Source: Verrucomicrobiaceae bacterium (GTDB taxonomy: Bacteria > Verrucomicrobiota > Verrucomicrobiia > Verrucomicrobiales > Verrucomicrobiaceae). From it: 64,000 bases of DNA. A model generated the notes under the pieces. It searched no databases and was not told the origin of the DNA. It was given only the letters and a program-made list of their open reading frames with translations. Both the position numbers and the translations under genes were made by a program. Positions 43,152 to 53,500 of the stretch are shown here, in pieces. Location: positions 124,001 to 188,000 of the forward strand of contig JAIXYN010000085.1 of the NCBI GenBank assembly GCA_027490195.1. The letters are read 5' to 3'. Within the stretch, counting starts at the first letter, position 1, and every line of letters starts with the position of its first letter.

Positions 43152-43757
43152 TCAGACCTCAAACACCCCCGTGCCGCCTGCGAGAAACATCTCCCAGTCG
43201 CGCACGCGGTGGTGATTCTTGATGAGATGCGTCACGGGGATCTCACGTGGCACAGAGGGACGGCGCAGGAGCTTGAGCCCCGCTTCCTCCGGCAGTTTGT
43301 TCCCCTTGCGGCTGTTCACCCGGCGGTCTGCCAGCACGCAGTTTTCCCAGTTGCTCGCGCCACCGCGAGAGACTGGAACGATGTGATCAATGTTGCCCTC
43401 ATGCGGTCGCAGCTTGCGCCCCGTGTACTGGCACATGCCGCCATCGCGTTCCCAGATCGCCTTGGCGCAGAATTTGGGGCGGCGCTTGGGCACCTTATCA
43501 AAGCGGGCCAGCACCAACACGGAAGGCACACGTACCGGACCTTGAACGGTGCCAATACTGTTGTCACCTTCGCGCACCTCCAGCTTCAGCCATTCCTCCC
43601 AGGTCACGGGTCGCATGTCTCCGGCTTCGTGAATGTCGAGCGCAGTCGCATTGCCCGCCGCCATCATGCTGAAGGACTCCATGGGCGTTTTAGAGTCGAT
43701 GGCCTGCCAGTGCCGATTCAGCACCAGTACGGTCGTTTTGGTCAACGTTTCATTCAT
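43152..43757 (-). CDS. HNH endonuclease, copy 2
   Basis: 201 residues. HNH signature: MCQYTGRKLRPHEGNIDHIV with the HNH core IDHIVPVSRGG, ENCVLADRRVNSRKGNK. The N-terminal about 90 residues (TTVLVLNRHWQAIDSKTPME) are shared with the neighbour at 43924; the two are about two-thirds identical by eye and of similar length. No integrase or intron border is seen, so these are not obviously homing enzymes. They are the last genes of the minus-strand RNA-repair region; whether the substrate is DNA or RNA is open. Confidence 0.88.
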   Translation of the reverse strand: MNETLTKTTVLVLNRHWQAIDSKTPMESFSMMAAGNATALDIHEAGDMRPVTWEEWLKLEVREGDNSIGTVQGPVRVPSVLVLARFDKVPKRRPKFCAKAIWERDGGMCQYTGRKLRPHEGNIDHIVPVSRGGASNWENCVLADRRVNSRKGNKLPEEAGLKLLRRPSVPREIPVTHLIKNHHRVRDWEMFLAGGTGVFEV

Positions 43758-43923: not shown

Positions 43924-44508
43924 TCATTTGGCCAAAAACATCTCCCAGTCCCGCACCTGATGCGTGTTGCGGATCAGGTGGGTAACGGGCAGTTCGCGTG
44001 GCACGGCAGGTTTTCGCAGCAGCTTCAGGCCGGCCTCTTCAGGCAACTTGCTGCCTTTGCGGCTGTTGACGCGCTTGTCGGCAAGGACGCAGTTTTCCCA
44101 GGAGGTGGGCCCGCCACGGGACAGCGGCACGATGTGGTCGATGTTCCCTTCGTGAGGGCGCAGCTTGCGGCCGGTGTACTGGCACAGGCCACCGTCGCGC
44201 TCCCAGATGCCGCGCACGCCAAACTTGGGGCGTTTCTTGGGCACCCTGTCATAGCGGGCCAGCACCAGCACGGAAGGCACACGCACCGGACCGTTCACGG
44301 TGCCGATGGCGTTGTCGCCTTCACGCACCGGGAGGCCCAGCCATTCCTTCCATGTCACCGGACGAATGTTTCCGTCCGCTTCGATGTCGAGCGCTGTGGC
44401 CGCTCCGGTGGCGATCATGCTGAAGGCCTCCAGCGGCGTTTTCACGGCGATGGCCTGCCAGTTGCGGTTGAGCACCAGGACGGTGGATTTGGTGAGGAGG
44501 TCGTTCAT
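43924..44508 (-). CDS. HNH endonuclease, copy 1
   Basis: 194 residues, start at 44508 (MNDLLTKSTVLVLNRNWQ). HNH core LCQYTGRKLRPHEGN, IDHIVPLSRGGPTSWENC and NSRKGSKL. The catalytic His-Asn-His/Asn elements look intact. Paralogue of the next gene. An interspersed inverted repeat separates it from rtcB upstream. Confidence 0.88.
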   Translation of the reverse strand: MNDLLTKSTVLVLNRNWQAIAVKTPLEAFSMIATGAATALDIEADGNIRPVTWKEWLGLPVREGDNAIGTVNGPVRVPSVLVLARYDRVPKKRPKFGVRGIWERDGGLCQYTGRKLRPHEGNIDHIVPLSRGGPTSWENCVLADKRVNSRKGSKLPEEAGLKLLRKPAVPRELPVTHLIRNTHQVRDWEMFLAK

Positions 44509-44687: not shown

Positions 44688-46106
44688 TTAGTCCTCCGCC
44701 TTCTCTCCAGCCGGACACATCTTGACGATGCGTGGCTCAAACTTGCCGAGCACTTCGACAAGATCCGTCTGCGCGGCCATGACGCTGTGAATGTCCTTGT
44801 AAACACCCGGCACTTCATCAAGACCGGCGCTGAGCAGCTCGACACCTGCGGCTGCGAGCTGTCTCTTCACGTTTCCCCAGGCGAAGCTCTGCAGCGCCTG
44901 GCTGCGGCTCATCACACGACCTGCGCCGTGAGAAGCGCTGTGGAGTGACTCGGGGTTCCCCTTGCCACGCACCACAAAGCCCGGTGTCGCCATAGAGCCC
45001 GGGATCACTCCCAGCACGCCAGCACCTGCAGGCGTCGCCCCTTTGCGGTGCACGATGACTTCGCGCGATTCGCCTTTCACCACATGCGTTTCCTTCCAGG
45101 CGAAGTTGTGGTGGTTCTCGATGTCGAGAATGACATGAGCCCCCACCTTCTTCGCGATGTGCTTGTGAATGAGCGCATGATTCGCCTCTGCGTAGCGGCC
45201 CATGAGGTTCATGGCCGCCCAGTATTCCTGACCGGCCTCTTCCTCAAAGGTGAGCCACGAGAGGTGTTTCATCTCGTGCGGCAAATCGTAACGTCGATCC
45301 ATGGCGATGCGGCTGTAGTGCTGGCACACCTGCGCCCCCACACCGCGTGAACCGCTGTGAGAAAGCAGCGCGATGTACTCGCCCGGCTTGATGTCGAAGC
45401 CGGACTCCTTCAGCGCGACGGCATCATCTGCCGACACAGTGAAAAAGCCAAACTCCACGAAGTGATTTCCTGAGCCACTGGTGCCAAGCTGCGCCCACGC
45501 CTTGTCTTTGTGACGACGCGTGATCGGAGACACGCTCCAATCCTCGTCCATCACATCGTGCTGACGGCGCTGCTTGAATTCACAACCCATGCCAAAGCGA
45601 GTTTCGCTTTCGATGATGTTCGCCAGTCGGTCTTTCTGCCCCGCAATGGTGCTGGCCTTGCGGTCATAAACCGTGAGGCGCATGCGACACGCGATGTCCA
45701 CACCGACAGCGTAAGGAATCACACAATCCTCCGTAGCCAGCACACCACCGATCGGCAGCCCGTAACCCGAATGAGCATCCGGCATGAGTGCCCCTGCCAC
45801 GGCGACGGGCAGCGCACAGGCATTCGCCAGCTGCTGCACCGCACTCGCATCGAGTCCTACGCCCCACTGATGCCAGGGCGCAATTTGATCGCGCTGCTTG
45901 TAGGCAGGCGCATAGAGATCACGCGCGAAGGCCTCCCGCAAAGGATCGCCGAGGAATGATTCCGGCTTGGAGATGATGGCACCAAGTTCTTCCTCCAAGC
46001 GCGCGGACTCACCGCCTTGGGAGATGAAATTCGCAATGAATTCCATGCCAGACTTGAGCGCTGCGCCCTGGCTTACGCCAAGGCGTGTTAGTTCTTGAGT
46101 TTGCAT
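44688..46106 (-). CDS. rtcB: RNA-splicing ligase RtcB
   Basis: 472 residues, normal length. It joins 2',3'-cyclic phosphate or 3'-phosphate ends to 5'-OH ends using GTP and Mn, in tRNA splicing or RNA repair. Metal and guanylate motifs are intact: LMPDAHSGYGLPIGGVLA, VGVDIACRMRL (Cys), LGTSGSGNHFVEFG (His), LLSHSGSRGVGAQV (His), IPGSMATPGFVVRG and the guanylated His in LHSASHGAGRVMSR. It is 133 bases after the RlaP-type gene, with a strong hairpin between. Linkage to a Ro60-like gene and RNA ligase indicates RNA repair. Confidence 0.97.
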   Translation of the reverse strand: MQTQELTRLGVSQGAALKSGMEFIANFISQGGESARLEEELGAIISKPESFLGDPLREAFARDLYAPAYKQRDQIAPWHQWGVGLDASAVQQLANACALPVAVAGALMPDAHSGYGLPIGGVLATEDCVIPYAVGVDIACRMRLTVYDRKASTIAGQKDRLANIIESETRFGMGCEFKQRRQHDVMDEDWSVSPITRRHKDKAWAQLGTSGSGNHFVEFGFFTVSADDAVALKESGFDIKPGEYIALLSHSGSRGVGAQVCQHYSRIAMDRRYDLPHEMKHLSWLTFEEEAGQEYWAAMNLMGRYAEANHALIHKHIAKKVGAHVILDIENHHNFAWKETHVVKGESREVIVHRKGATPAGAGVLGVIPGSMATPGFVVRGKGNPESLHSASHGAGRVMSRSQALQSFAWGNVKRQLAAAGVELLSAGLDEVPGVYKDIHSVMAAQTDLVEVLGKFEPRIVKMCPAGEKAED

Positions 46107-46239: not shown

Positions 46240-47016
46240 CTAGTTCTTCAAGGCATAACGCCGGAAAAAGATGTCGAGTTCATCCAGGTCCCCCATGGCG
46301 TCCTCAGGATCGTTCAGCGCCTTGAGCCTCTGCAGTTCCGCGACAATGAAGCGCGAAAGCACGAGATCGGGCGCAGACTTGCTGAGCTCATCGCCAGCGC
46401 GCTTGCGGACCAGAAGAGCCTCCAAGGCCAGCCGGACTTCGCGTTCATCGAGCACGGCATCCACCAGTTCCTGAAAGAGCATGGGCACCTGACCCAGCGA
46501 ACGCTCGATCCAGCGGCACGCCAGCAGCGGCCGGAGGACGTAGAGATACTTTTTCAGGCTCACCTGATCCCTGCCATCCAGATAGCTCTTCCAGTTGCCG
46601 GATGCCATGTGCAGGTAGTGCGCAAAGCAGCGGCGTGGCGAATAGAAAATCCCGGCCAGTTCCTCGAACTCACGTGTGAAGTCGGGATCACGATGGTAAA
46701 CCATCGGTGACTTCATCCATTCAAGGAGTGGCGGATTGCTTTTCCGCAGCAGGCGCAGCGCCTTGCGCAGTTCCCAGCCGCTCACATCGAGTTCATCGCA
46801 GAGCGGTTCTTCGATCACATCGCGCCGGCTCTCGATGGAGAGATACCATTCACGACGGTGCACATACAGAAAGCGCACATCGTAGTCGCTGTCTTGGGAC
46901 TCAAAACCCCAGGCACGGCTGCCGCTTTCGCAGGCATACAGCACCCGGACATCCTGCTCGGTTTCGAGACGGTTGAGCGCATTGCGGACGCGCTGAGAAA
47001 CTTCGTTGTTTGGCAT
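46240..47016 (-). CDS. RlaP-type nucleotidyltransferase (PF10127)
   Basis: 258 residues. Pol-beta-fold nucleotidyltransferase: GSRAWGFESQDSDYDVRFLY near residue 32 has the GS...DxD metal motif, followed by helical parts. The family (COG3541, called RlaP) is found with RNA ligases and Ro60/RtcB in bacteria and is proposed to add nucleotides to damaged RNA ends. The start is supported by a strong Shine-Dalgarno, AAAAGGAGGT, 5 bases before the ATG. It lies between the Ro60-like gene and rtcB, as in known RNA repair operons. Confidence 0.9.
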   Translation of the reverse strand: MPNNEVSQRVRNALNRLETEQDVRVLYACESGSRAWGFESQDSDYDVRFLYVHRREWYLSIESRRDVIEEPLCDELDVSGWELRKALRLLRKSNPPLLEWMKSPMVYHRDPDFTREFEELAGIFYSPRRCFAHYLHMASGNWKSYLDGRDQVSLKKYLYVLRPLLACRWIERSLGQVPMLFQELVDAVLDEREVRLALEALLVRKRAGDELSKSAPDLVLSRFIVAELQRLKALNDPEDAMGDLDELDIFFRRYALKN

Positions 47017-47097: not shown

Positions 47098-48525
47098 TTA
47101 TAGCTCCACGGCTTCGATCATGCGGATCAGTGCGCCTGGGTCGGAATCCAGCAGCTTCAGAGTCTCCAGCGTTTTGTCGCTGAAGCCGGCCAGGCAGCAA
47201 ACCTGGCGCTCTGGGAACTGCAGGGAGCCGTAGCCGTTCAGGTCAAAGCTGAACACTTTCGGATCGCAGCGGTGGCGCGCCTTCCAGCAGCGGAATGTCT
47301 CCACGGGCGCCTGGTGTCCCACCCAACCCTGCATGTCAGAGAGGATGATGACACGGTCATACGCCCGGTCTGCGCACTGGAAGATAGAGTGGAAGTCGGT
47401 TCCCGCCGACTGTGCCTGGCCTTGCAGCCATTTGGCCAGCGAGAGCGTGCTGTCGCGCTTGTTCAGCGTGACGTATTTGGCCCTGTCGCTGAAGAGAATG
47501 ACATCGGCGTCATTCGCCTTGAGCAACGTGGCGGCAAAGAGTGAACCAATCTGCAGCGGGCGACCCATCATGGAGCCGGAGCCATCCAGCGCGACAAGCG
47601 TGCGGCCTGGAAAGGATGGCACGTTGGCGAGCGAGATGTCCACGGCATCGCTGAGGGCTGCCAGTGCATCGGCTGCACGCGGCAGATTGCTGACCTGCAC
47701 AGCTTCAAGAGCCGTCTGAAAGCGGAACGGCAGCACAAGCGATTTGCGGATGAGTTTTTCATCGCGCAGCATCGCCAGCGCCTCGTTCACGGCTTCCGGA
47801 GCAGCTTCGAGCACGTTGCGCAGGTTTCGCAGCAGGGCGAAGTAGCCCAGCTTCCGCGTGCGAATGAGCTCCGACCATGCCTCGCGTTTCAGCGAGGCAA
47901 GATCATCGTCATTCTGCGCGACGGCACCGGCCTGCGTGAGCTTGGTTTCCCAAGTTTCGGCAGCGGCCAGTGTGCCTTTGACGAGCTTGCCCAGTGCCTC
48001 CGTTGCAGGCGGGTGAACGAGATTCACAACATCGACCAGCGAAAGGTCGGCGCTGTCCTTGCGGTATTTCGCGAGCTGATACTCGTCGAAACGCGCGAGG
48101 GCGCGGCCAAGACCTTTCTTGAGCGAATTCGGAATCACTTTCCCATGCGCACCGCGGTAGCAGGCGAGGATCTCGATGGCGTCATCTGGACGATGCACGA
48201 CACGGTCATAAAACCGCGCCGTCCACGCCTGCCCCTTCACGCTTTTGGCCAGCTCCGCCGCAGCGAGGTGGCTCACACTGCGCATGCCGGCGAATTTGCG
48301 GGCATAGAGCGCGGCCTTGGCCACGAAGCATTTGTCACTCTGGGCTGAGATTAGCTCACGCAGGCGCTGCGCGGTGGCATCGCCACTGCGGTAGAAGTCA
48401 TCCTTGAGCATGGACGTGAGCATGAGGGAGGCGAGTTCGAGTTTGGGCGACTCGGTGAAGGCCTCGCCACCCGCGAGGTTGAGCGTGTCAGCACGCGGGC
48501 GTTTCTTGAGGAAGTTAAATTTCAT
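47098..48525 (-). CDS. rsr: Ro60/TROVE-domain protein (Rsr)
   Basis: 475 residues from the ATG at 48525 (MKFNFLKKRPRADTLNLAG); an open extension upstream runs into an RNA gene. The TROVE HEAT-repeat ring covers about 10-310 (KCFVAKAALYARKFAGMRSV, SHLAAAELAKSVKGQAWTAR) and a vWA-like domain follows with the MIDAS motif VALDGSGSMMGRPLQIGS near 340. Ro60 proteins bind Y RNAs and misfolded RNAs and cooperate with exoribonucleases. A Y-like RNA gene ends 23 bases upstream of the start codon, the arrangement known for bacterial Rsr, and three more precede it. Confidence 0.95.
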   Translation of the reverse strand: MKFNFLKKRPRADTLNLAGGEAFTESPKLELASLMLTSMLKDDFYRSGDATAQRLRELISAQSDKCFVAKAALYARKFAGMRSVSHLAAAELAKSVKGQAWTARFYDRVVHRPDDAIEILACYRGAHGKVIPNSLKKGLGRALARFDEYQLAKYRKDSADLSLVDVVNLVHPPATEALGKLVKGTLAAAETWETKLTQAGAVAQNDDDLASLKREAWSELIRTRKLGYFALLRNLRNVLEAAPEAVNEALAMLRDEKLIRKSLVLPFRFQTALEAVQVSNLPRAADALAALSDAVDISLANVPSFPGRTLVALDGSGSMMGRPLQIGSLFAATLLKANDADVILFSDRAKYVTLNKRDSTLSLAKWLQGQAQSAGTDFHSIFQCADRAYDRVIILSDMQGWVGHQAPVETFRCWKARHRCDPKVFSFDLNGYGSLQFPERQVCCLAGFSDKTLETLKLLDSDPGALIRMIEAVEL

Positions 48526-48548
48526 GGTGTTGGTTTGCTGGGTGGAAT

Positions 48549-48642
48549 GCGGAGAAAGTTTGCCAGGGAGACGGCCCGTGATAAGCCGCCGGCGCTCTTG
48601 CGAGCACACCGGCTCCCGAAGTAACCCCGGCATCACTGCCGC
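48549..48642 (-). ncRNA. Y-RNA-like RNA 1, directly before the Ro60-like gene
   Basis: 94 bases between closing strands. Stem 1 ATGCGG/CCGCAT; 5' internal loop CAGTGA; stem 2 TGCCGG/CTGGCA; 3' internal loop AACTTTCT; then GGTTACTTCG after stem 2. The distal part holds GCCGG-type hairpin with GCTC-GCAA-GAGC and an outer GGAG/CTCC pair, but no T-arm. Shares all conserved parts with the four RNAs upstream. Confidence 0.78.
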
Positions 48643-48672
48643 ATGGTGTTCTTGAGTTCGGAAAATGGATTT

Positions 48673-48813
48673 GGGGAGAAAAGTGACCGGAGAACGGATG
48701 CGTTAACATCCAGCTGCTCTACCACTGAGCTACAAATGCCTGTGGGCACCCGGCAGGACTCGAACCTGCAACCAGCCGATTATGAGTCGAAGTAACTCCA
48801 GTCTCACTGCCCC
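48673..48813 (-). ncRNA. Y-RNA-like RNA 2 with a permuted tRNA-like domain
   Basis: 141 bases. Stem 1 TTTGGGG/CCCCAAA (extends to 48670-48816), loop CAGTGA, stem 2 GACTGG/CCGGTC, 3' loop ACTTTTCT, AGTTACTTCG motif. The distal part is a circularly permuted tRNA: anticodon-like CTCATAA, strand TCGGC, T-arm GCAGGTTCGAGTCCTGC, an acceptor stem CGGGTGCC/GGCATTTG closed by CACA, D-arm GCTCAGTGGTAGAGC, then GCTGG pairing with TCGGC. T-loop and D-loop are canonical. Confidence 0.82.
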
Positions 48814-48823
48814 AAAAAAGAAT

Positions 48824-48960
48824 CGCGGAGAAAAGCAGACAGGCTCTAACTGAGAAAGCCGGGAATCGAACCCGGCGCCGGCTTTCACCGACCCCCAACT
48901 CATGGGCAATCGCACTTCAGTTTGTGTTTGGAGCGAAGAAATTCTGTCTTCACTGCCGCG
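48824..48960 (-). ncRNA. Y-RNA-like RNA 3
   Basis: 137 bases. Stem 1 TCGCGG/CCGCGA, loop CAGTGA, stem 2 AGACAG/CTGTCT, 3' loop GCTTTTCT, AATTTCTTCG motif. Distal part has the T-arm GCCGGGTTCGATTCCCGGC followed almost at once by a D-arm-like CTCAGTTAGAGC, again T before D; no acceptor stem is visible. 11 bases separate it from RNA 2. Confidence 0.8.
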
Positions 48961-48977
48961 AAATTGAAAAAAGAGAA

Positions 48978-49073
48978 TCTGAGGAGAAAGCCGGCCAGGG
49001 CTTCACCCTGTTGCCAGGATGATGGGATTTGAACCCACGATTTCCGGAGTATCCCCGGCCTTACTGCCTCAGA
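48978..49073 (-). ncRNA. Y-RNA-like RNA 4 with closed acceptor stem
   Basis: 96 bases including a 7-bp stem 1 TCTGAGG/CCTCAGA; loop CAGTAA; stem 2 GGCCGG/CTGGCC; 3' loop GGCTTTCT; GGATACTCCG motif. Distal part: T-arm GTGGGTTCAAATCCCAT, then the acceptor-like stem CATCCTG/CAGGGTG closed by a GCAA tetraloop. Follows a terminator-like hairpin of the upstream gene, so it may start a new transcript. Confidence 0.82.
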
Positions 49074-49093
49074 GTCATGTGCTAAAATTGAAA

Positions 49094-49126
49094 TGCGTGC
49101 GGCACACTTGCAGCATGCCGCACGCA
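49094..49126 (-). terminator. Hairpin after the unrecognised protein gene
   Basis: Perfect 11-bp stem TGCGTGCGGCA with TGCCGCACGCA, 11-base loop, then TTTCAATTTT on the minus strand. It begins 25 bases after the stop codon at 49152. Confidence 0.6.
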
Positions 49127-49151
49127 CAGGGATTGAACGTGTCGGATTAAA

Positions 49152-49964
49152 TCAATCAAGGAAGGCCAGATTGCTGCGCGAAGGAGCACGGTGCTCCTCG
49201 TTCATCAAAACCTGGTGCCAGTCGTGAAGCACGATGGTGGCATGGTCGGCATGACGAATCGAGCCCCGGGCATAAACACCGGGGTTTCGGCGCATCTGGC
49301 GCCATGGCCAGCTTTTCGCGGCAGGACGGCGCAGGAGCAGGTTGTCATACTGCTTCTGCGTGAGTCCGCGAGGATGCTGCTGGTGGACATAGACGACCTC
49401 GCCTCCGGTGCGGTAGAGCTGCTCCACAAGGTGAGGCTTGCTGCCGCCTCCGCGTGAGATGGGCTCGTGACGCAGGATGAGCTTGGGATCAACGACCAGT
49501 GGTTTATCCACGGGCACGAAGAACCACTCACCCTGACGGCGGAAGGCCGCGTTGTTCCGGGTGTTGGCCTGGCGGGCATTCAGGTTCTTGCGAGCCTGCG
49601 CCTCACGCACGGGAGCTGGTTTGAGCGCCTCCTTGGCCTGCACCACGGTGGATGCATTGCTGGGGACGGCGGCGACAAACCATTCGCGCTCATCGTGACC
49701 GCACAGAAAGCGATCCTTGCGTTTGCTGTCCTCGTTTTTCACGAGGAGCAGCAGGTGGCGAATCTCCTTCTGCTTGTGCAGCAGGGAGAACTCCACCTCC
49801 GCAAGGCTCACATCATCGCCACGAAGGGCGAAGAACTGTCCATGACGGTCATGACCGATGTCGAGCGAGTATCCCGAAGGGGTGCCCCAGCTGCGAGCCG
49901 GAGTCTCCACACGAAGCCGTGCACCGATGGATTCAAACGCACGTTCGAGATGTTCGAGTTTCAT
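49152..49964 (-). CDS. Unrecognised protein between tRNA and Y-like RNA genes
   Basis: 270 residues; no family recognised. No signal peptide or membrane segment. It is rich in Arg, His and Lys, with about 30 Arg. Notable parts: SGYSLDIGHDRHGQFFALRG near 30-50, FLCGHDEREWFVAAVP near 86-101, a basic middle (KNLNARQANTRNNAAFRRQG) near 125-145, FFVPVDKPLVVDPKLILRHE, and VYVHQQHPRGLTQKQYDNLL. The FVAAVP and FFVPV segments look like an internal repeat. A cytoplasmic RNA-related role is inferred only from position, flanked by Y-like RNA 5 upstream and RNAs 4 to 1 and the Ro60-like gene downstream. Confidence 0.75.
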   Translation of the reverse strand: MKLEHLERAFESIGARLRVETPARSWGTPSGYSLDIGHDRHGQFFALRGDDVSLAEVEFSLLHKQKEIRHLLLLVKNEDSKRKDRFLCGHDEREWFVAAVPSNASTVVQAKEALKPAPVREAQARKNLNARQANTRNNAAFRRQGEWFFVPVDKPLVVDPKLILRHEPISRGGGSKPHLVEQLYRTGGEVVYVHQQHPRGLTQKQYDNLLLRRPAAKSWPWRQMRRNPGVYARGSIRHADHATIVLHDWHQVLMNEEHRAPSRSNLAFLD

Positions 49965-50126
49965 AAAGGAATCATCGAATCATCATCCGTTCGATCTGCC
50001 CGCGAACGAGCACGCTGGACGGATGTGACAGCGATCTTCCAAACAAGGTGATGCCAGCGGGAAGATGCGCTGGCTAGGTGGGTTGGTGTTTCATAGGTTG
50101 TATTGAGATGAGGTTGAAAAAGGATT

Positions 50127-50255
50127 GCGGAGGAAGTCGAACGAAGTGCTGTGACGCCGGCGGACCGGCATCTCGGCGGGATTTGCACCCGCATGTCTGG
50201 GCTCGCACCCAGTGCTGTACTGTTTGCTACGAAGTAACTCCGTTCTCACTGCCGC
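50127..50255 (-). ncRNA. Y-RNA-like RNA 5, adjoining tRNA-Val
   Basis: 129 bases. Stem 1 TTGCGG/CCGCAA (extends to 50125-50257), loop CAGTGA, stem 2 GAACGG/TCGTTC, 3' loop GACTTCCT, AGTTACTTCG motif. Distal part: an extra arm CTGGGTGCGAGCCCAG, T-arm GCGGGTGCAAATCCCGC, and acceptor-like stem GATGCCGG/CCGGCGTC closed by TCCG. The T-loop TGCAAAT is of the array type. It starts 7 bases after the CCA of tRNA-Val, so it is probably cotranscribed. Confidence 0.8.
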
Positions 50256-50262
50256 AAAAGCA

Positions 50263-50336
50263 TGGTCGCCCGTGAAGGTGCTGCCCCCTCGATTTCTGGA
50301 TGTAAGCCAGACGTGATGCTGTTTCACTAACGGGCG
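50263..50336 (-). tRNA. tRNA-Val (anticodon TAC)
   Basis: 74 bases with encoded CCA. Acceptor CGCCCGT/ACGGGCG, anticodon stem TCTGG/CCAGA around loop CTTACAT, T-arm GAGGG-GGCAGCA-CCTTC. T-loop lacks the usual TTC. Confidence 0.85.
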
Positions 50337-50342
50337 TGAAAA

Positions 50343-50417
50343 TGGTCGGTCCACAGGGACATGCACCCTGCTATGCCGGTTAAAAGCCGACTGCTTCGCT
50401 GTCTAAGCTTTGGACCG
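50343..50417 (-). tRNA. tRNA-Lys (anticodon TTT)
   Basis: 75 bases with encoded CCA. Acceptor CGGTCCA/TGGACCG, D-arm GCTTAGACAGCGAAGC, anticodon loop CTTTTAA, T-arm CAGGG-TGCATGT-CCCTG. All stems are complete. Confidence 0.9.
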
Positions 50418-50461
50418 AAAAAAGATTGTGTTTGGTTTGCCGTGCGATCTAGACTCCGAGC

Positions 50462-50845
50462 ATGAATCACCCCACGAGTTGCAAAAAATGCATCCTGATG
50501 CTGGTGTTGCTTGTCTGGATTACCTCATGCGTTTCACAGACTTATACCTCCGCCATACCGAGCCCCGAGAGCACGGTGACAGTCTTTGGCCTTGTGAAGA
50601 CCCAAGGAGCGTTGAAACGGTTGACCTGGACTGAGGGCATGACCCTCACTCACTGCATCAAAAAAGCAGGTGGCTTTTGCGCTCCCGCAAATTGGAAAGA
50701 TGTGATTCTGATAGAGCCCATTGAGCGTGGCAATCGTATGCGCATGCGAAAGCGATATCCCAAACTCGACGAAAAAAAGGCGAATACTGTTAAAGTTCGC
50801 AAAGGGAGCATCATCATCGTTGAGGACCCGAGTCCGACATTTTAG
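50462..50845 (+). CDS. Small SLBB-like lipoprotein on the strand opposite the array
   Basis: 127 residues. Lipoprotein signal MNHPTSCKKCILMLVLLVWI with the lipobox ITSC. The mature part TVTVFGLVKTQGALKRLTWT and TLTHCIKKAGGFCAPANWKD looks like an SLBB domain, as in polysaccharide export proteins. It is the only plus-strand gene in the tRNA array, sitting between tRNA-Lys and tRNA-Leu(GAG), and its stop is 3 bases from the 3' end of the latter. Confidence 0.72.
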   Translation: MNHPTSCKKCILMLVLLVWITSCVSQTYTSAIPSPESTVTVFGLVKTQGALKRLTWTEGMTLTHCIKKAGGFCAPANWKDVILIEPIERGNRMRMRKRYPKLDEKKANTVKVRKGSIIIVEDPSPTF

Positions 50846-50848
50846 AGT

Positions 50849-50924
50849 TGGTGCTCATGGCAGGACTTGCACCCGCACTGGCGACGTTCTCGACGTCGTG
50901 CCTCTGCAGTTGGGCTACATAAGC
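50849..50924 (-). tRNA. tRNA with Leu anticodon GAG, short variable loop
   Basis: 76 bases with CCA. Acceptor GCTTATG/CATGAGC, anticodon stem CGACG/CGTCG with loop TCGAGAA (C at position 33), T-arm GCGGG-TGCAAGT-CCTGC. The variable loop CCAGT has 5 bases, although bacterial tRNA-Leu is class II. Shares its T-half with tRNA-Leu(CAG). Confidence 0.82.
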
Positions 50925-50932
50925 TTTGAAAT

Positions 50933-51009
50933 TGGCAACCCCGGCGGGATTTGAACCCGCAATAACCCGATAGAAAGTCGGGTGCCTTGGCCAGTTAGAC
51001 GACAGGGTC
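50933..51009 (-). tRNA. tRNA-Glu (anticodon TTC)
   Basis: 77 bases with CCA. Acceptor GACCCTG/CGGGGTT, anticodon stem CCCGA/TCGGG with loop CTTTCTA, T-arm GCGGG-TTCAAAT-CCCGC. The only array member with a canonical TTC T-loop and a GG-containing D-loop. Confidence 0.93.
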
Positions 51010-51019
51010 GAAAAGATGA

Positions 51020-51058
51020 AATGCGGCCACTTTGGCTTGTCACCCTAGTGGCCGCATT
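51020..51058. other. Perfect hairpin after the RNA ligase gene
   Basis: 11-bp stem AATGCGGCCAC with GTGGCCGCATT and a 17-base loop, 4 bases after the ligase stop; TCATCTTTT follows on the minus strand. A weak terminator or a processing site before tRNA-Glu. Confidence 0.55.
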
Positions 51059-51062
51059 CGAG

Positions 51063-52088
51063 TCAATCGCCGCCCTTGAGAAGGAAGCGGTTGCTGATGG
51101 CTTTGAAGGACAGGCGCCCTCCGAGCACCTGGCTGATGCTCTCACTTAGCGAGCGGATGACAATGCCTTCACGCTCGTTTTGCGTTCCAGCATAGAAGCC
51201 CTCCGAGAGCGCAAGAAGCGATGCCTGATCATGAGCGAAAGATTCGCCGCGTTCCAACACCTCCACCATGGGAACGCCGATGGATCCTGGAAAGTCGCCG
51301 GCCTCATCATGCGCGAGGTAGCGACCATTCTTTTGATCAAAGACGTTGAAGGCCGCGAGCTGGATGCCTGGGAGGGCAAGACGATTCTTTTGAATGCCTG
51401 GCCCGACCAGCTCCGCCTGCAAGATCATTTCGGGATGACGAGCGAGAGCTGTTTCGAGCTGGTATTTCTCCGCAGCATTCCAGTAGGCATTGTTACCGCG
51501 CTTGATGCTCCAGTTTCGACCGCAGACAGTGAATGCCCCGGTGTGGCAATGGATGCCGTAGCTGGCCGATGTGCCGTCACATTTCACCGTGATGACATAG
51601 GGGCGCCCCGTTAGCTCGGCGATGACTTCGGGCACACTCTGCACGCGCATTTCGTCGGTCTTCGGCACTCCGGGCAGGAACGGACCGTCTACTTCGTCAT
51701 TCATGGGTATTTGTGGCTCCCATTTATTGATGCGCAGAGAATCGGTGACATCCTCGCCCGGGGGCAAAGCTGTAGGCAGTTCCGGAAACTGCTTCAAAGG
51801 CAGCAACAATCCTTGGGAGAGCACGCCGCGAAGACGGAGCGTTCGCAGATGAAAGCCCGCCGGCTGCGCGATGGGTGTACCATCTTTGGGCCGCTAGAGA
51901 AACTGGAAGCGTGGTTCATCGGGCGGCACGGCGTCGATTTCGAAAAACACACCGGTAGCCCCGACAGAAAACTCGCCCTTTTTGACCACACACTGCCAGC
52001 CCTGAATGCGAGCCAGTTCGATGGCGTCCGCATTGGCAATGGGTTCGATGGCGAGAACCGTCTGAATAGAAGCGAGTTTACGTTTCAT
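51063..52088 (-). pseudogene. DraRnl-type RNA ligase interrupted by one in-frame TAG
   Basis: 342 codons from the ATG at 52088 to the stop at 51063, the length of Deinococcus Rnl. A single TAG at 51896-51894 (codon 65) breaks an otherwise continuous frame: no shift is needed to read through. Before it, the OB-like domain MKRKLASIQTVLAIEPIANA and VVKKGEFSVGATGVFFEIDA; after it, FHLRTLRLRGVLSQGLLLP and the nucleotidyltransferase motifs: VKCDGTSASY (motif I Lys), CGRNWSIKRG, EGIVIRS (motif IV) and LSFKAISNRFLLK (motif V). It would seal 3'-OH/5'-P RNA nicks. Pseudogene, read-through or a separate C-terminal protein from the GTG at 51824 are all open. Confidence 0.85.
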
Positions 52089-52114
52089 AGGGTTTGTGAG
52101 TTGGATGGGATAAA

Positions 52115-52208
52115 TGGCGGAACGTCGAGGACATGCTCCTCATGCCGCACGAGGGCGGCACGATCTTGTTAGCAACAAGTCCCGGCACGCTGGTCCGGTT
52201 GACGTTCC
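52115..52208 (-). tRNA. tRNA-Ser (anticodon GCT)
   Basis: 94 bases with CCA and discriminator G. Acceptor GGAACGT/ACGTTCC; loop TTGCTAA; long variable arm GTGCCGCCCTCGTGCGGCAT as expected for Ser; T-arm TGAGG-AGCATGT-CCTCG. It ends 26 bases before the RNA ligase start codon. Confidence 0.86.
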
Positions 52209-52217
52209 ATGATGAAG

Positions 52218-52293
52218 TGGCACTCCCGGAAGGACTTTCGCCTACAACCTGCGCGTTCGAAGCGCGGTGCTCTATACATTGAGCTACGGGAGC
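52218..52293 (-). tRNA. tRNA-Arg (anticodon TCG)
   Basis: 76 bases with CCA. Acceptor GCTCCCG/CGGGAGT, D-arm GCTCAATGTATAGAGC, loop CTTCGAA. The T-arm is weak (GTAGG/CCTTC, one mismatch) with loop CGAAAGT. Confidence 0.82.
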
Positions 52294-52300
52294 ATTGAAA

Positions 52301-52375
52301 TGGTGCCCATGGCAGGACTCGCACCCGCACTGGACCGCTTCTGAGGCGGTTGTCTCTGCATTGGACTACATGGGC
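52301..52375 (-). tRNA. tRNA with Leu anticodon CAG, short variable loop
   Basis: 75 bases with CCA. Acceptor GCCCATG/CATGGGC, D-arm GTCCAATGCAGAGAC, anticodon stem ACCGC/GCGGT with loop CTCAGAA, variable CCAGT, T-arm GCGGG-TGCGAGT-CCTGC. A class I shape with a Leu anticodon, so the charged amino acid is uncertain. Confidence 0.84.
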
Positions 52376-52382
52376 ATGAAAC

Positions 52383-52458
52383 TGGCAGCCTCGGGTGGGT
52401 TTGCACCACCAACCCTCCGCTTCAAAGGCGGATGCTCTGCTGATTGAGCTACAAGGCT
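52383..52458 (-). tRNA. tRNA-Gln (anticodon TTG)
   Basis: 76 bases with CCA and discriminator G. Acceptor AGCCTTG/CGAGGCT, D-arm GCTCAATCAGCAGAGC, anticodon stem TCCGC/GCGGA with loop CTTTGAA, T-arm GGTGG-TGCAAAC-CCACC. Confidence 0.9.
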
Positions 52459-52468
52459 ATTTTTGAAA

Positions 52469-52543
52469 TGGTCGGTCCGGCTGGCATTGCACCAGCACCT
52501 TCCGGGTTATGAGCCCGACGCTCTACTGTTAAGCTACAGACCA
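52469..52543 (-). tRNA. tRNA-Met or Ile2 (anticodon CAT), copy 2
   Basis: 75 bases with CCA. Acceptor TGGTCTG/CGGACCG, D-arm GCTTAACAGTAGAGC, anticodon stem TCGGG/CCCGG with loop CTCATAA, T-arm GCTGG-TGCAATG-CCAGC. The three-G-C-pair signature of initiators is not clear, so elongator Met or lysidine Ile. Confidence 0.88.
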
Positions 52544-52550
52544 GTGAAAA

Positions 52551-52627
52551 TGGTCGGATACCCCGGTGCTGCCCCGGGCGTGTCTTGGTCCCAAACCAAG
52601 CGAGAACGGCTGGCTCTCTCGTATCCG
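52551..52627 (-). tRNA. tRNA-Pro (anticodon TGG)
   Basis: 77 bases with CCA. Acceptor CGGATAC/GTATCCG, anticodon stem CTTGG/CCAAG with loop TTTGGGA, T-arm CCCGG-GGCAGCA-CCGGG. The D-arm is large (GAGA/TCTC with loop GCCAGCCGT). Confidence 0.85.
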
Positions 52628-52636
52628 ATGAAAAGA

Positions 52637-52711
52637 TGGACGTGCACCCCAGACTTGCACTGGGTAATGCGGTTTTGCGGACCGCTGACTCGGCTCTTTG
52701 TCTTGCGCACG
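52637..52711 (-). tRNA. tRNA-Cys (anticodon GCA)
   Basis: 75 bases with CCA and discriminator T, the usual Cys identity base. Acceptor CGTGCGC/GTGCACG, anticodon stem GCGGT/ACCGC with loop CCGCAAA (C at position 33), T-arm CCCAG-TGCAAGT-CTGGG. Confidence 0.88.
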
Positions 52712-52718
52712 AATTAAA

Positions 52719-52792
52719 GGGTTCCCTCAGCCGGTTCTGCCCCGGCACCGCTTCGTTCACAACGAAGAATGCTGCTGTTACACTATGAAGGG
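52719..52792 (-). tRNA. tRNA-His (anticodon GTG), no encoded CCA
   Basis: 74 bases. Anticodon stem CTTCG/CGAAG with loop TTGTGAA, T-arm GCCGG-GGCAGAA-CCGGC. The 3' end reads ACCC instead of CCA and the outer acceptor pair is C-A; six inner acceptor pairs hold (CCTTCA/TGAGGG). It may need end repair. Confidence 0.78.
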
Positions 52793-52802
52793 TGTGTTGA
52801 AA

Positions 52803-52878
52803 TGGATCCTCCGGTGGGATTTGCGCCCACATGAACCTGTTTACGAAACAGGTCCCTTTCTACGTCGGCCACGGAGGA
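52803..52878 (-). tRNA. tRNA-Thr (anticodon CGT)
   Basis: 76 bases with CCA. Acceptor TCCTCCG/CGGAGGA, anticodon stem CCTGT/ACAGG with loop TTCGTAA, T-arm GTGGG-CGCAAAT-CCCAC. The D-arm is poorly paired. Confidence 0.88.
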
Positions 52879-52903
52879 ATTGAAAAGTGGTGCGGCATGT
52901 CGG

Positions 52904-52959
52904 AACGCCATGCGCGATAGCGCAACATTAAGACGAAGTCATTTGGCGTAGCCGAAGGC
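52904..52959 (-). other. Structured insertion A in a tRNA T-arm (56 bases)
   Basis: Begins GCCTTCGGC, then ACGCC...GGCGT enclosing AAATG, a small GAC-TTC-GTC stem, AATG, and the hairpin TGCGC-TATC-GCGCA. It lies exactly between the seventh T-loop base and the 3' T-stem strand. Homologous to the insertion at 53280-53343. Confidence 0.75.
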
Positions 52960-52986
52960 AACTGCCCCGACGCGCCCTGTTTGGTT

Positions 52987-53049
52987 ATGCCTGCGCGAAG
53001 CGCAAAACCATGAGGTGCGGAGCACTGGCTGCATCGGCGCAGGAGCGCC
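52987..53049 (-). other. Structured insertion C in a tRNA anticodon region (about 63 bases)
   Basis: Begins with hairpin GGCGC-TCCT-GCGCC, then ATGC...GGCAT enclosing GTGC-TCC-GCAC and TGCGC-TTC-GCGCA. Element order and sizes match insertions A and B, but sequence identity is lower and the borders are approximate. Confidence 0.58.
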
Positions 53050-53092
53050 AACACTCGCATGCTTGCTGTTACATCAATGCCGCAATGAAAAG

Positions 53093-53167
53093 TGGTCGTT
53101 GGAGTTGGTAGCGCGCCAACCTGGTCGGATTTTCAACCCGCTGCTCATCTGTCTAAGCCATCCAGCG
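53093..53167 (-). tRNA. tRNA-Phe (anticodon GAA)
   Basis: 75 bases with CCA. Acceptor CGCTGGA/TCCAACG with a C-A mismatch at pair 3, D-arm GCTTAGACAGATGAGC, loop TTGAAAA, T-arm GTTGG-CGCGCTA-CCAAC. Confidence 0.82.
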
Positions 53168-53179
53168 TTCTATGAGAAA

Positions 53180-53253
53180 TGGTCCCTCGGCGTGGTGACG
53201 CTCCACGGTCTGCCGGTTATCGACCGGCTGCTCTGCTGTTGAGCTACAGAGGG
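53180..53253 (-). tRNA. tRNA-Ile (anticodon GAT)
   Basis: 74 bases with CCA. Acceptor CCCTCTG/CCGAGGG (one T-C mismatch), D-arm GCTCAACAGCAGAGC, anticodon stem GCCGG/CCGGC with loop TCGATAA (C at position 33), T-arm CGTGG-AGCGTCA-CCACG. Confidence 0.86.
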
Positions 53254-53263
53254 ATGAAAAAAT

Positions 53264-53417
53264 TGGCGGAGCACCAGAGAATGCCTTGCGCGATAGCGCA
53301 TCATTTGAACGCTCGGCGCATTTGGCATGGCCTCGGAAGAGGCACTTGCACTCTGGACGCCTTGATCGGGCGCAGCGGTTTTCGAGACCGTTTCCTCGTC
53401 TATGCCGGACGTGCTCC
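53264..53417 (-). tRNA. tRNA-Ser (anticodon CGA) with a T-arm insertion
   Basis: 154 bases with CCA and discriminator G. Acceptor GGAGCAC/GTGCTCC, anticodon loop CTCGAAA in a CGGT/ACCG stem, long variable arm GCGCCCGATCAAGGCG, T-stem CAGAG/CTCTG with a complete T-loop TGCAAGT followed by a 64-base insertion (53280-53343). Without the insertion it is a normal class II tRNA of 90 bases. Confidence 0.85.
53280..53343 (-). other. Structured insertion B in a tRNA T-arm (64 bases)
   Basis: Begins GCCTC-TTCC-GAGGC, then ATGCC...GGCAT enclosing AAATG, CGC-CGA-GCG, CAAATG and TGCGC-TATC-GCGCA. Compared with insertion A, the ATGCC/GGCAT and ACGCC/GGCGT stems and the inner CGC/GCG and GAC/GTC stems show compensatory changes. 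Same site in the T-arm. Confidence 0.78.
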
Positions 53418-53425
53418 GTTTGAAA

Positions 53426-53500
53426 TGGTGGAGCCGGACGGTAATGCTCCGTCGCTTGCTGGGTGCAAACCAGCCGTGCAGTCTTCTACACTACGGTCCC
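53426..53500 (-). tRNA. tRNA-Ala (anticodon TGC)
   Basis: 75 bases with CCA. Acceptor GGGACCG/CGGCTCC keeps the G3-T70 wobble pair that defines Ala; pair 4 is A-C. Anticodon stem GCTGG/CCAGC with loop TTTGCAC, T-arm GACGG-AGCATTA-CCGTC. Confidence 0.88.

Follow-up and report, generated by a model that had tools for sequence, protein, structure and literature searches.

The minus strand of a 64,000-nt stretch of Verrucomicrobiaceae DNA (the window, whose numbering is used for all coordinates below) carries five RNA elements, E1 to E5, grouped around the gene for a Ro60 orthologue. In sequence the five show a common two-stem module and differing inner domains, most of them tRNA-like, and the reading favored here, with somewhat better than even confidence, is that they are predicted tRNA-mimicking Y RNAs within an island devoted to tRNA repair or to reserve tRNAs. 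One element, E2, is predicted to be a circularly permuted tRNA that includes an anticodon arm; a second, E5, appears to keep a tertiary contact of the tRNA elbow through joint change. An earlier note on this DNA had described the five elements as a structured, Ro60-linked RNA family, and the tRNA-mimicking inner domains and the tRNA-array and RNA-repair setting go beyond what it observed. The five elements and the Ro60 gene are as follows.

48547..48644, minus strand: Y RNA E1; Ro stem, CAGTGA / AACTTTCT loop; T arm not found
48670..48816, minus strand: Y RNA E2; Ro stem plus predicted circularly permuted tRNA (anticodon arm, loop CTCATAA; T arm; loop-closed acceptor; D arm; extra hairpin)
48823..48961, minus strand: Y RNA E3; Ro stem, T arm and other hairpins
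48978..49073, minus strand: Y RNA E4; Ro stem, T arm and closed acceptor-like hairpin
50125..50257, minus strand: Y RNA E5; Ro stem, D region, anticodon-like arm, T arm and closed hairpin at the acceptor position; elbow A18-G55
47098..48525, minus strand: Ro60 orthologue; TROVE, Pfam PF05731 E 7e-19; vWA match below cut-off

A Shared Module with Covarying Stems

All five minus-strand elements, with their common closing stem, internal loop and second stem, were located in the window, and the stem sequences quoted in the earlier note were confirmed; stem 2 extends to 8 bp in E1, E2, E4, and E5 and has 6 bp in E3. The CAGUAA variant of the 5′ loop was correctly given as a single occurrence and is found in E4. 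The motif after stem 2 is exactly UUACUUCG in E1, E2, and E5, UUUCUUCG in E3, and AUACUCCG in E4. The consensus module comprises a stem 1 ending in GG/CC, the 5′ loop CAGYRA, the 3′ loop NNYUUYCU, a stem 2 of about 8 bp, and then WWHCUUCG; this Ro60-linked RNA family is here named A-type. As had been claimed, four elements stand in tandem before the Ro60 gene: E1 to E4 directly precede it, and E5 lies upstream of the open reading frame (ORF) for a conserved protein, U270, beside a tRNA unit.

A scan for the 5′ loop anchor on both strands of 140 sequences (4.75 Mb) returned 69 matches, vs. 1 in base-shuffled sequence. All but three of these (66/69) are located upstream of Ro60 and on its strand, at a distance of up to about 1.8 kb, and one, at locus L006, duplicates the genome of locus L039. 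The 3′ anchor is absent in 18 of the 69 matches, and pairing was tested on 50 elements, 41 of them unique, with L006 left out. When the unique elements were anchored by their loops with no pairing requirement, 374 of 410 non-anchor stem cells were paired; exchange of the 3′ halves between elements lowered this to 268.9 ± 7.6, with a maximum of 296 over 2000 permutations. An alignment of 11 E2-type sequences has 96.2% of its cells paired and 14 pairs changed on both sides, values reached in neither case by any of 500 shuffles, and an alignment of 14 E5-type sequences has 94.1% of cells paired and 16 pairs changed on both sides (0/500 shuffles). The shuffles leave relatedness in; partners slid by 1–3 columns score far lower. 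Unlike these measures, that of further pair types, in pair counts, was matched by 21 and 32 of 500 shuffles. The covariation in aligned homologues is strong against both the permutation and the shuffle controls and bears out the claim that the compensatory changes mark a real RNA structure. A descriptor that required pairing gave 48 plus-strand matches vs. 31 in shuffles over both strands and was dropped in favor of the pairing-free anchors.

A Predicted Permuted tRNA in E2

The inner domain of E2 reads as a circularly permuted tRNA, in the order anticodon arm, T arm, loop-closed acceptor and D arm; it has no free CCA end because the acceptor stem is closed by a loop. The best non-self match in a genome search with E2 is the housekeeping tRNA-Arg(UCU), whose halves match in swapped order, the 3′ half at E2 positions 35–75 (90%, E 2e-8) and the 5′ half at positions 76–104 (87%, E 0.07). 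Several other tRNAs have 5′ halves that fit the D-arm stretch at least as well, and E2 29–75 is also matched by a tRNA-Met; more than one tRNA is thus a candidate source of E2, while the swapped order is clear.

The conserved UUCG(A) provides the 5′ strand of the anticodon arm. An arm of at least 4 bp with a 7-nt loop bearing U33, A37, and A38 is present in 8 of 11 E2-type RNAs, with the loops CUCAUAA (three), CUGUUAA (two), AUGAAAA, CUGAGAA, and CUUAGAA; 4 bp are reached by 7.9% of shuffled tails. Applied to 67 elements, this test finds 16 with at least 4 bp, made up of eight E2-type, three mini and five E4-type RNAs. The five E4-type hairpins have loops without U33, look like chance and were set aside. 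The mini elements consist of the Ro stem and an anticodon-like hairpin only (L033:7223-7296, L034:3132-3204, L044:5255-5323, and, in a phage, L177:3956-4025). The E2 arm order is also seen in the Clostridia loci L064 and L097, with the triplets UUU and UCU as read by eye.

Elbow Covariation in E5

The domains of E5 follow the order D region, anticodon-like arm, T arm and loop-closed hairpin at the acceptor position, and E5 would thus correspond to a tRNA whose opening lies at the acceptor/D junction. Alternatively, E5 can be read in normal tRNA order, with UUCG and CGAN forming a short acceptor. ARAGORN calls a tRNA in the E5 types of L025, L027, L028, and L029; the E5 consensus fold favors the closed acceptor hairpin and does not display the D stem.

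At the elbow, D-loop positions 18–19 and T-loop position 55 read AG/G in five and GG/U in nine of the E5-type RNAs, with 0 of 14 discordant, a concordance of exact probability 1 in 2002 when relatedness is ignored, the window and L024 being near copies. The assignment comes from a revised pattern, the first having failed on 9 of the 14 rows. All 11 E2-type RNAs are GG/U. G18-U55 is described as a pair of the tRNA elbow (PMC7912444), and because these positions pair there, their joint change speaks for a tRNA-like three-dimensional fold of E5. In the open-access literature searched, no earlier report of anticodon-arm or elbow features of Y RNAs was found.

A tRNA Array with an Altered Elbow

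Among the loci seen, the A18/G55 elbow, as called from D- and T-loop sequences, is a trait of Verrucomicrobiota tRNA arrays and is common to some E5 RNAs. At 19 loci, 188 ARAGORN tRNAs with a T arm lie upstream of Ro60, a number that includes a few Y RNAs called as tRNAs; they are AG/G in 119 cases, GG/U in 32, AG/U in 6, GG/G in 4 and AG/A in 1, with the D loop unassigned in 26. Assignment was mechanical, and some discordant rows are T-loop register slips (e.g., two Leu rows). Among these rows, 12 GG/U and 2 GG/G come from the Bacteroidota locus L042, without which the Fisher p is 2e-17, relatedness ignored. All 43 non-array tRNAs of the listed set are GG/U (G18/U55). At 20 further loci with Ro60 or the motif (Bacteroidota, Clostridia, Sericytochromatia, and phages), nearly all ARAGORN tRNAs have GG and most have U55; one AG/G case was seen, in L085.

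The Y RNAs themselves look like members of the array, because E3 and E2 are only six bases apart (spacer TTCTTT) and E5 begins a few bases past a tRNA unit. They are perhaps cut from common precursors with array members.

The Surrounding Island

In order of transcription the minus strand carries the tRNA array with an RNA-ligase gene inside it, E5, U270, E4, E3, E2, E1, Ro60, RlaP, RtcB and two HNH genes. The features beyond the Y RNAs and Ro60 are these.

46240..47016, minus strand: RlaP, RNA repair pathway DNA polymerase beta family; Pfam PF10127 E 8e-90
44688..46106, minus strand: RtcB-like RNA ligase; Pfam PF01139 E 5e-86; NCBIfam RtcB models below cut-off
43924..44508, minus strand: HNH endonuclease paralogue 2
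43152..43757, minus strand: HNH endonuclease paralogue 1
49155..49964, minus strand: U270, conserved 270-aa protein between E4 and E5; no Pfam match; relatives aligned from six related islands
51063..52088, minus strand: RNA ligase gene; PF09414; DRB0094-like below cut-off
50266..53500, minus strand: tRNA array; 7 ARAGORN units, 6 of 7 with a non-canonical T loop

Both HNH paralogues have weak similarity to Cas9/IscB-type HNH domains, and for paralogue 1 such matches are below cut-off. A fold search with a predicted model of U270 (pLDDT 78.8) gave no match at E 0.001. The RNA ligase gene at 51063-52088 has an in-frame stop after residue 64, where the frame is uninterrupted in the relatives L024 and L028; the stop may be a nonsense mutation, an assembly error or decay. 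A small ORF with an SLBB domain (50462-50845) lies on the opposite, plus strand within the tRNA array.

The gene content of related islands was counted at 18 Verrucomicrobiota loci (L024-L039, L043, and L044), and the counts are lower bounds, several contigs ending nearby: at least four ARAGORN tRNAs are present in 17, an HNH match near Ro60 in 14 and RtcB in 12. In Anabaena, TrcR is described as repressing a tRNA array along with rtcB and an HNH gene, and translation inhibitors as inducing the array (PMC10272220). Together with this precedent, the company of RtcB and a tRNA array points to a response to tRNA damage or translational stress.

Distribution and Ro60 Clades

With one mismatch allowed, the A-type motif is found upstream of Ro60 in 19 of 19 Verrucomicrobiota loci (L005, L024-L039, L043, and L044; Ro60 identity 54-97%), L046, with 3 bases upstream only, being left out. 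Three to five motifs are present at 16 of the 19, and the genome's other Ro60 is accompanied by four YrlA-type RNAs, so that the earlier note's view of five copies as unusual is not supported. Its proposal of structured RNAs that have Y RNA architecture and are linked to Ro60, here across phyla, is supported, and the RNAs are candidates for Ro60 binding. Paired A-type elements precede Ro60 in L040 (a Desulfobacteraceae bin), in L047 (Neolewinella), in the Clostridia loci L050, L064, L095, and L097, and in the viral contigs L104, L105, L177, L182, and L185; the element of L105 is a mini element, at two mismatches, and L189 has the motif only. In L097 (Clostridiales), five tandem candidate elements before Ro60 at 41-812, with two mismatches allowed, parallel the five of the window. 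A-type Y RNAs, including the mini anticodon-hairpin form, stand just before the Ro60 gene in viral L177 (3880-4190) and L182 (2197-2510).

No upstream A-type motif was found at one mismatch in L041, L042, L103, L106, L107, or L109, whose Ro60 proteins are 43-51% identical. The signature scan reached up to 3.5 kb on each side of Ro60, and about 1.5 kb for part of the genomes. Off-position one-mismatch A-type motifs (L051, L111, L113, and L114, downstream) and lone B-type motifs (L052, L088, and L119) were not counted as Y RNAs. A pattern scan of the phylum matched 41 of 387 genomes, mostly with single matches; in G016 and G327 there are two, on separate contigs, clustered matches occur only in G000 (4) and G181 (3), and the reversed pattern also gives scattered matches. 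The scan missed G080 despite its close Ro60, since the motif there is different.

The same genome encodes a second, distant Ro60 (28-32% identical), with four YrlA-type RNAs downstream that bear the signature GAAUGC..ACUACA, and with RtcR; this second system lies on contig C43 of G000 at about 151453-155200 (L003, L020, and L212). The A-type and YrlA-type signatures occur together in no Ro60 locus scanned. In a quick Ro60 tree of 50 hand-chosen rows, with long branches flagged, a branch of support 100 separates the nine YrlA-type rows from the rest; the label changes once for A vs. B and five times for A vs. all other rows, the latter because some relatives show no motif in the search. The A-type RNAs provide a second candidate signature for Ro60 binding, one that goes with a single Ro60 clade; as the YrlA type is present in the same genome, Ro60/RNA specificity is testable in a single organism.

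Proposed Role and Alternatives

Since RNAs of Y RNA architecture adjoin their own Ro60 clade, the Ro60 of the A-type clade would grip the two-stem module. The tRNA-like end would dock a tRNA-recognizing protein and so tether Ro60 to tRNA processing or repair; candidate partners include RtcB, RlaP, the RNA ligase, the island HNH proteins, or PNPase as in Deinococcus. The block as a whole may be a kit against tRNA damage, with the array supplying reserve tRNAs, the ligases performing repair and the Y RNA/Ro60 particle handling broken or misfolded tRNA. A further possibility is that E2-type RNAs engage anticodon nucleases through their anticodon loops. A fuller version, which is tentative and rather doubtful, would make the kit self-contained: the A18-G55 reserve tRNAs would evade agents or enzymes that read the normal elbow, and the permuted-tRNA Y RNAs with their anticodon loops would serve the Ro60/RtcB/RlaP machinery as bait or as an adaptor.

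Several observations count against tRNA mimicry within a repair island. Three of the 11 E2-type RNAs (L032, L034, and L035) miss the 4-bp anticodon-arm test, and the window and L024, whose rows are near-identical, are each counted among the 11 E2-type and the 14 E5-type sequences. E1 lacks a T arm and the mimicry of E3 and E4 is no more than partial, from which it follows that full mimicry is not required in every copy. Of the 18 related loci, RlaP was found at 6 and the RNA ligase at 2, and the window's own ligase gene is interrupted, so neither is a constant part of the island.

One alternative is that these are ordinary YrlA Y RNAs whose divergence is limited to sequence and which tether Ro60 to PNPase, as described for Deinococcus (PMC7790460); this is possible but doubtful. 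The architecture is the same, with an outer stem, an asymmetric loop, an inner stem and the T-acceptor-D order, although that last order is found in E2 only among the five and several inner domains are not YrlA-like. In a check against Rfam, whose Y RNA and YrlA models the earlier note had proposed to use, only tRNAs are found in the window at gathering thresholds; the YrlA model RF02553 matches E2 over its full length (38.2 bits, E 7.8e-6) but under the gathering score of 69. The E4 region scores 17.1 bits, E1, E3, and E5 are not listed, and only E2 stands out, because pairs of array tRNAs reach 18-20 bits; at E 1 the model also matches below cut-off in 13 of 14 control genomes. The Ro-stem signature GAAUGC ... 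ACUACA was not found beside A-type Ro60 genes, nor the A-type signature beside the other clade. The five RNAs adjoin a Ro60 gene, and their 5′ and 3′ ends pair, with an internal loop, apart from the effector domain, as in bacterial Y RNAs broadly defined. By position and predicted architecture they are Y RNAs, and by score and Ro-stem signature they are not Rfam YrlA.

It is unlikely that the RNAs act mainly as anticodon decoys, sequestering anticodon nucleases or similar toxins with Ro60 as stabilizer. Such a role would suit the E2-type loops with U33, A37, A38 and varied triplets, as well as the mini elements reduced to a Ro stem and an anticodon-like hairpin, and Hughes et al. name competitive inhibition as possible for YrlA, which their nuclease left uncut (PMC7790460). 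It fits poorly with E1 and E3, which fail the anticodon-arm test, with the E4-type hairpins that lack U33, and with several E5 loops that, by eye, lack it as well. That E2, and perhaps E5, are permuted pre-tRNA genes whose products are processed and RtcB-ligated into working tRNAs is highly improbable: a permuted tRNA with an anticodon arm does stand beside an RtcB gene and the acceptor loop reads ACCA in the relative L024, but acceptor loops are variable, many of them without CCA (e.g., GAAA in L032), E1, E3, and E4 cannot yield a tRNA, and the closed Ro stem is conserved.

By sequence, one Y RNA inner domain reads as a permuted tRNA that includes an anticodon arm, and a second retains a tertiary elbow contact through joint change. 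These Y RNAs are placed inside a tRNA array whose members mostly alter a highly conserved tRNA contact. The role of bacterial Y RNAs with tRNAs becomes a directly testable question.

Comparison with Known Y RNAs and RNA Repair Systems

Chen et al. (2014) reportedly identified probable Y RNAs next to Ro60 in over 250 bacteria and phages, many of them having a tRNA-like domain, and the A-type RNAs may already be among them. The structure of a YrlA domain, one that has no anticodon arm, was reportedly solved by Wang et al. in 2018. YrlA (Rfam RF02553) resembles the E2 type in lying next to Ro60 and in having a closing stem, an asymmetric internal loop, an inner stem and the order T arm, closed acceptor, D arm. 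It differs in its signature, GAAUGC with ACUACA, as against CAGYRA/NNYUUYCU followed by UUACUUCG in the A-type, and its Rfam consensus has no anticodon arm, whereas the E2 type has one. In position, too, A-type RNAs are upstream of Ro60, while the YrlA type of this genome is downstream. The Y RNA of Deinococcus (Rfam RF01053) is likewise Ro60-linked and has a 34-nt local likeness in E3, a partial match (20.6 bits, E 1.2) that does not reach the gathering score of 80. YrlA is described as having tRNA-like D, T and acceptor arms, with the tRNA-like end as the docking side (PMC8394870).

Like the island, the Salmonella rsr-yrlBA-rtcBA operon with RtcR, as described, brings Ro60, Y RNAs and RtcB together (PMC7790460). 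In the island RtcR is not adjacent, and a tRNA array, RlaP and HNH genes are present instead; control differs from that of the classical operon, since the genome's sole RtcR match adjoins its YrlA-type Ro60 on contig C43. The Anabaena trn array is also a long tRNA array tied in its control to rtcB and an HNH gene, but the array is described as plasmid-borne and rtcB as chromosomal, where here they are contiguous, and the account, as far as consulted, does not mention Ro60 or Y RNAs (PMC10272220). The TROVE proteins of jumbo phages are described in company with tRNAs and RNA ligases and are read as RNA repair against anticodon cleavage (PMC7824862). That account, in the portion drawn on, concerns the protein with a tRNA-like partner rather than A-type RNAs as such (PMC7824862), whereas the viral contigs seen here carry both.

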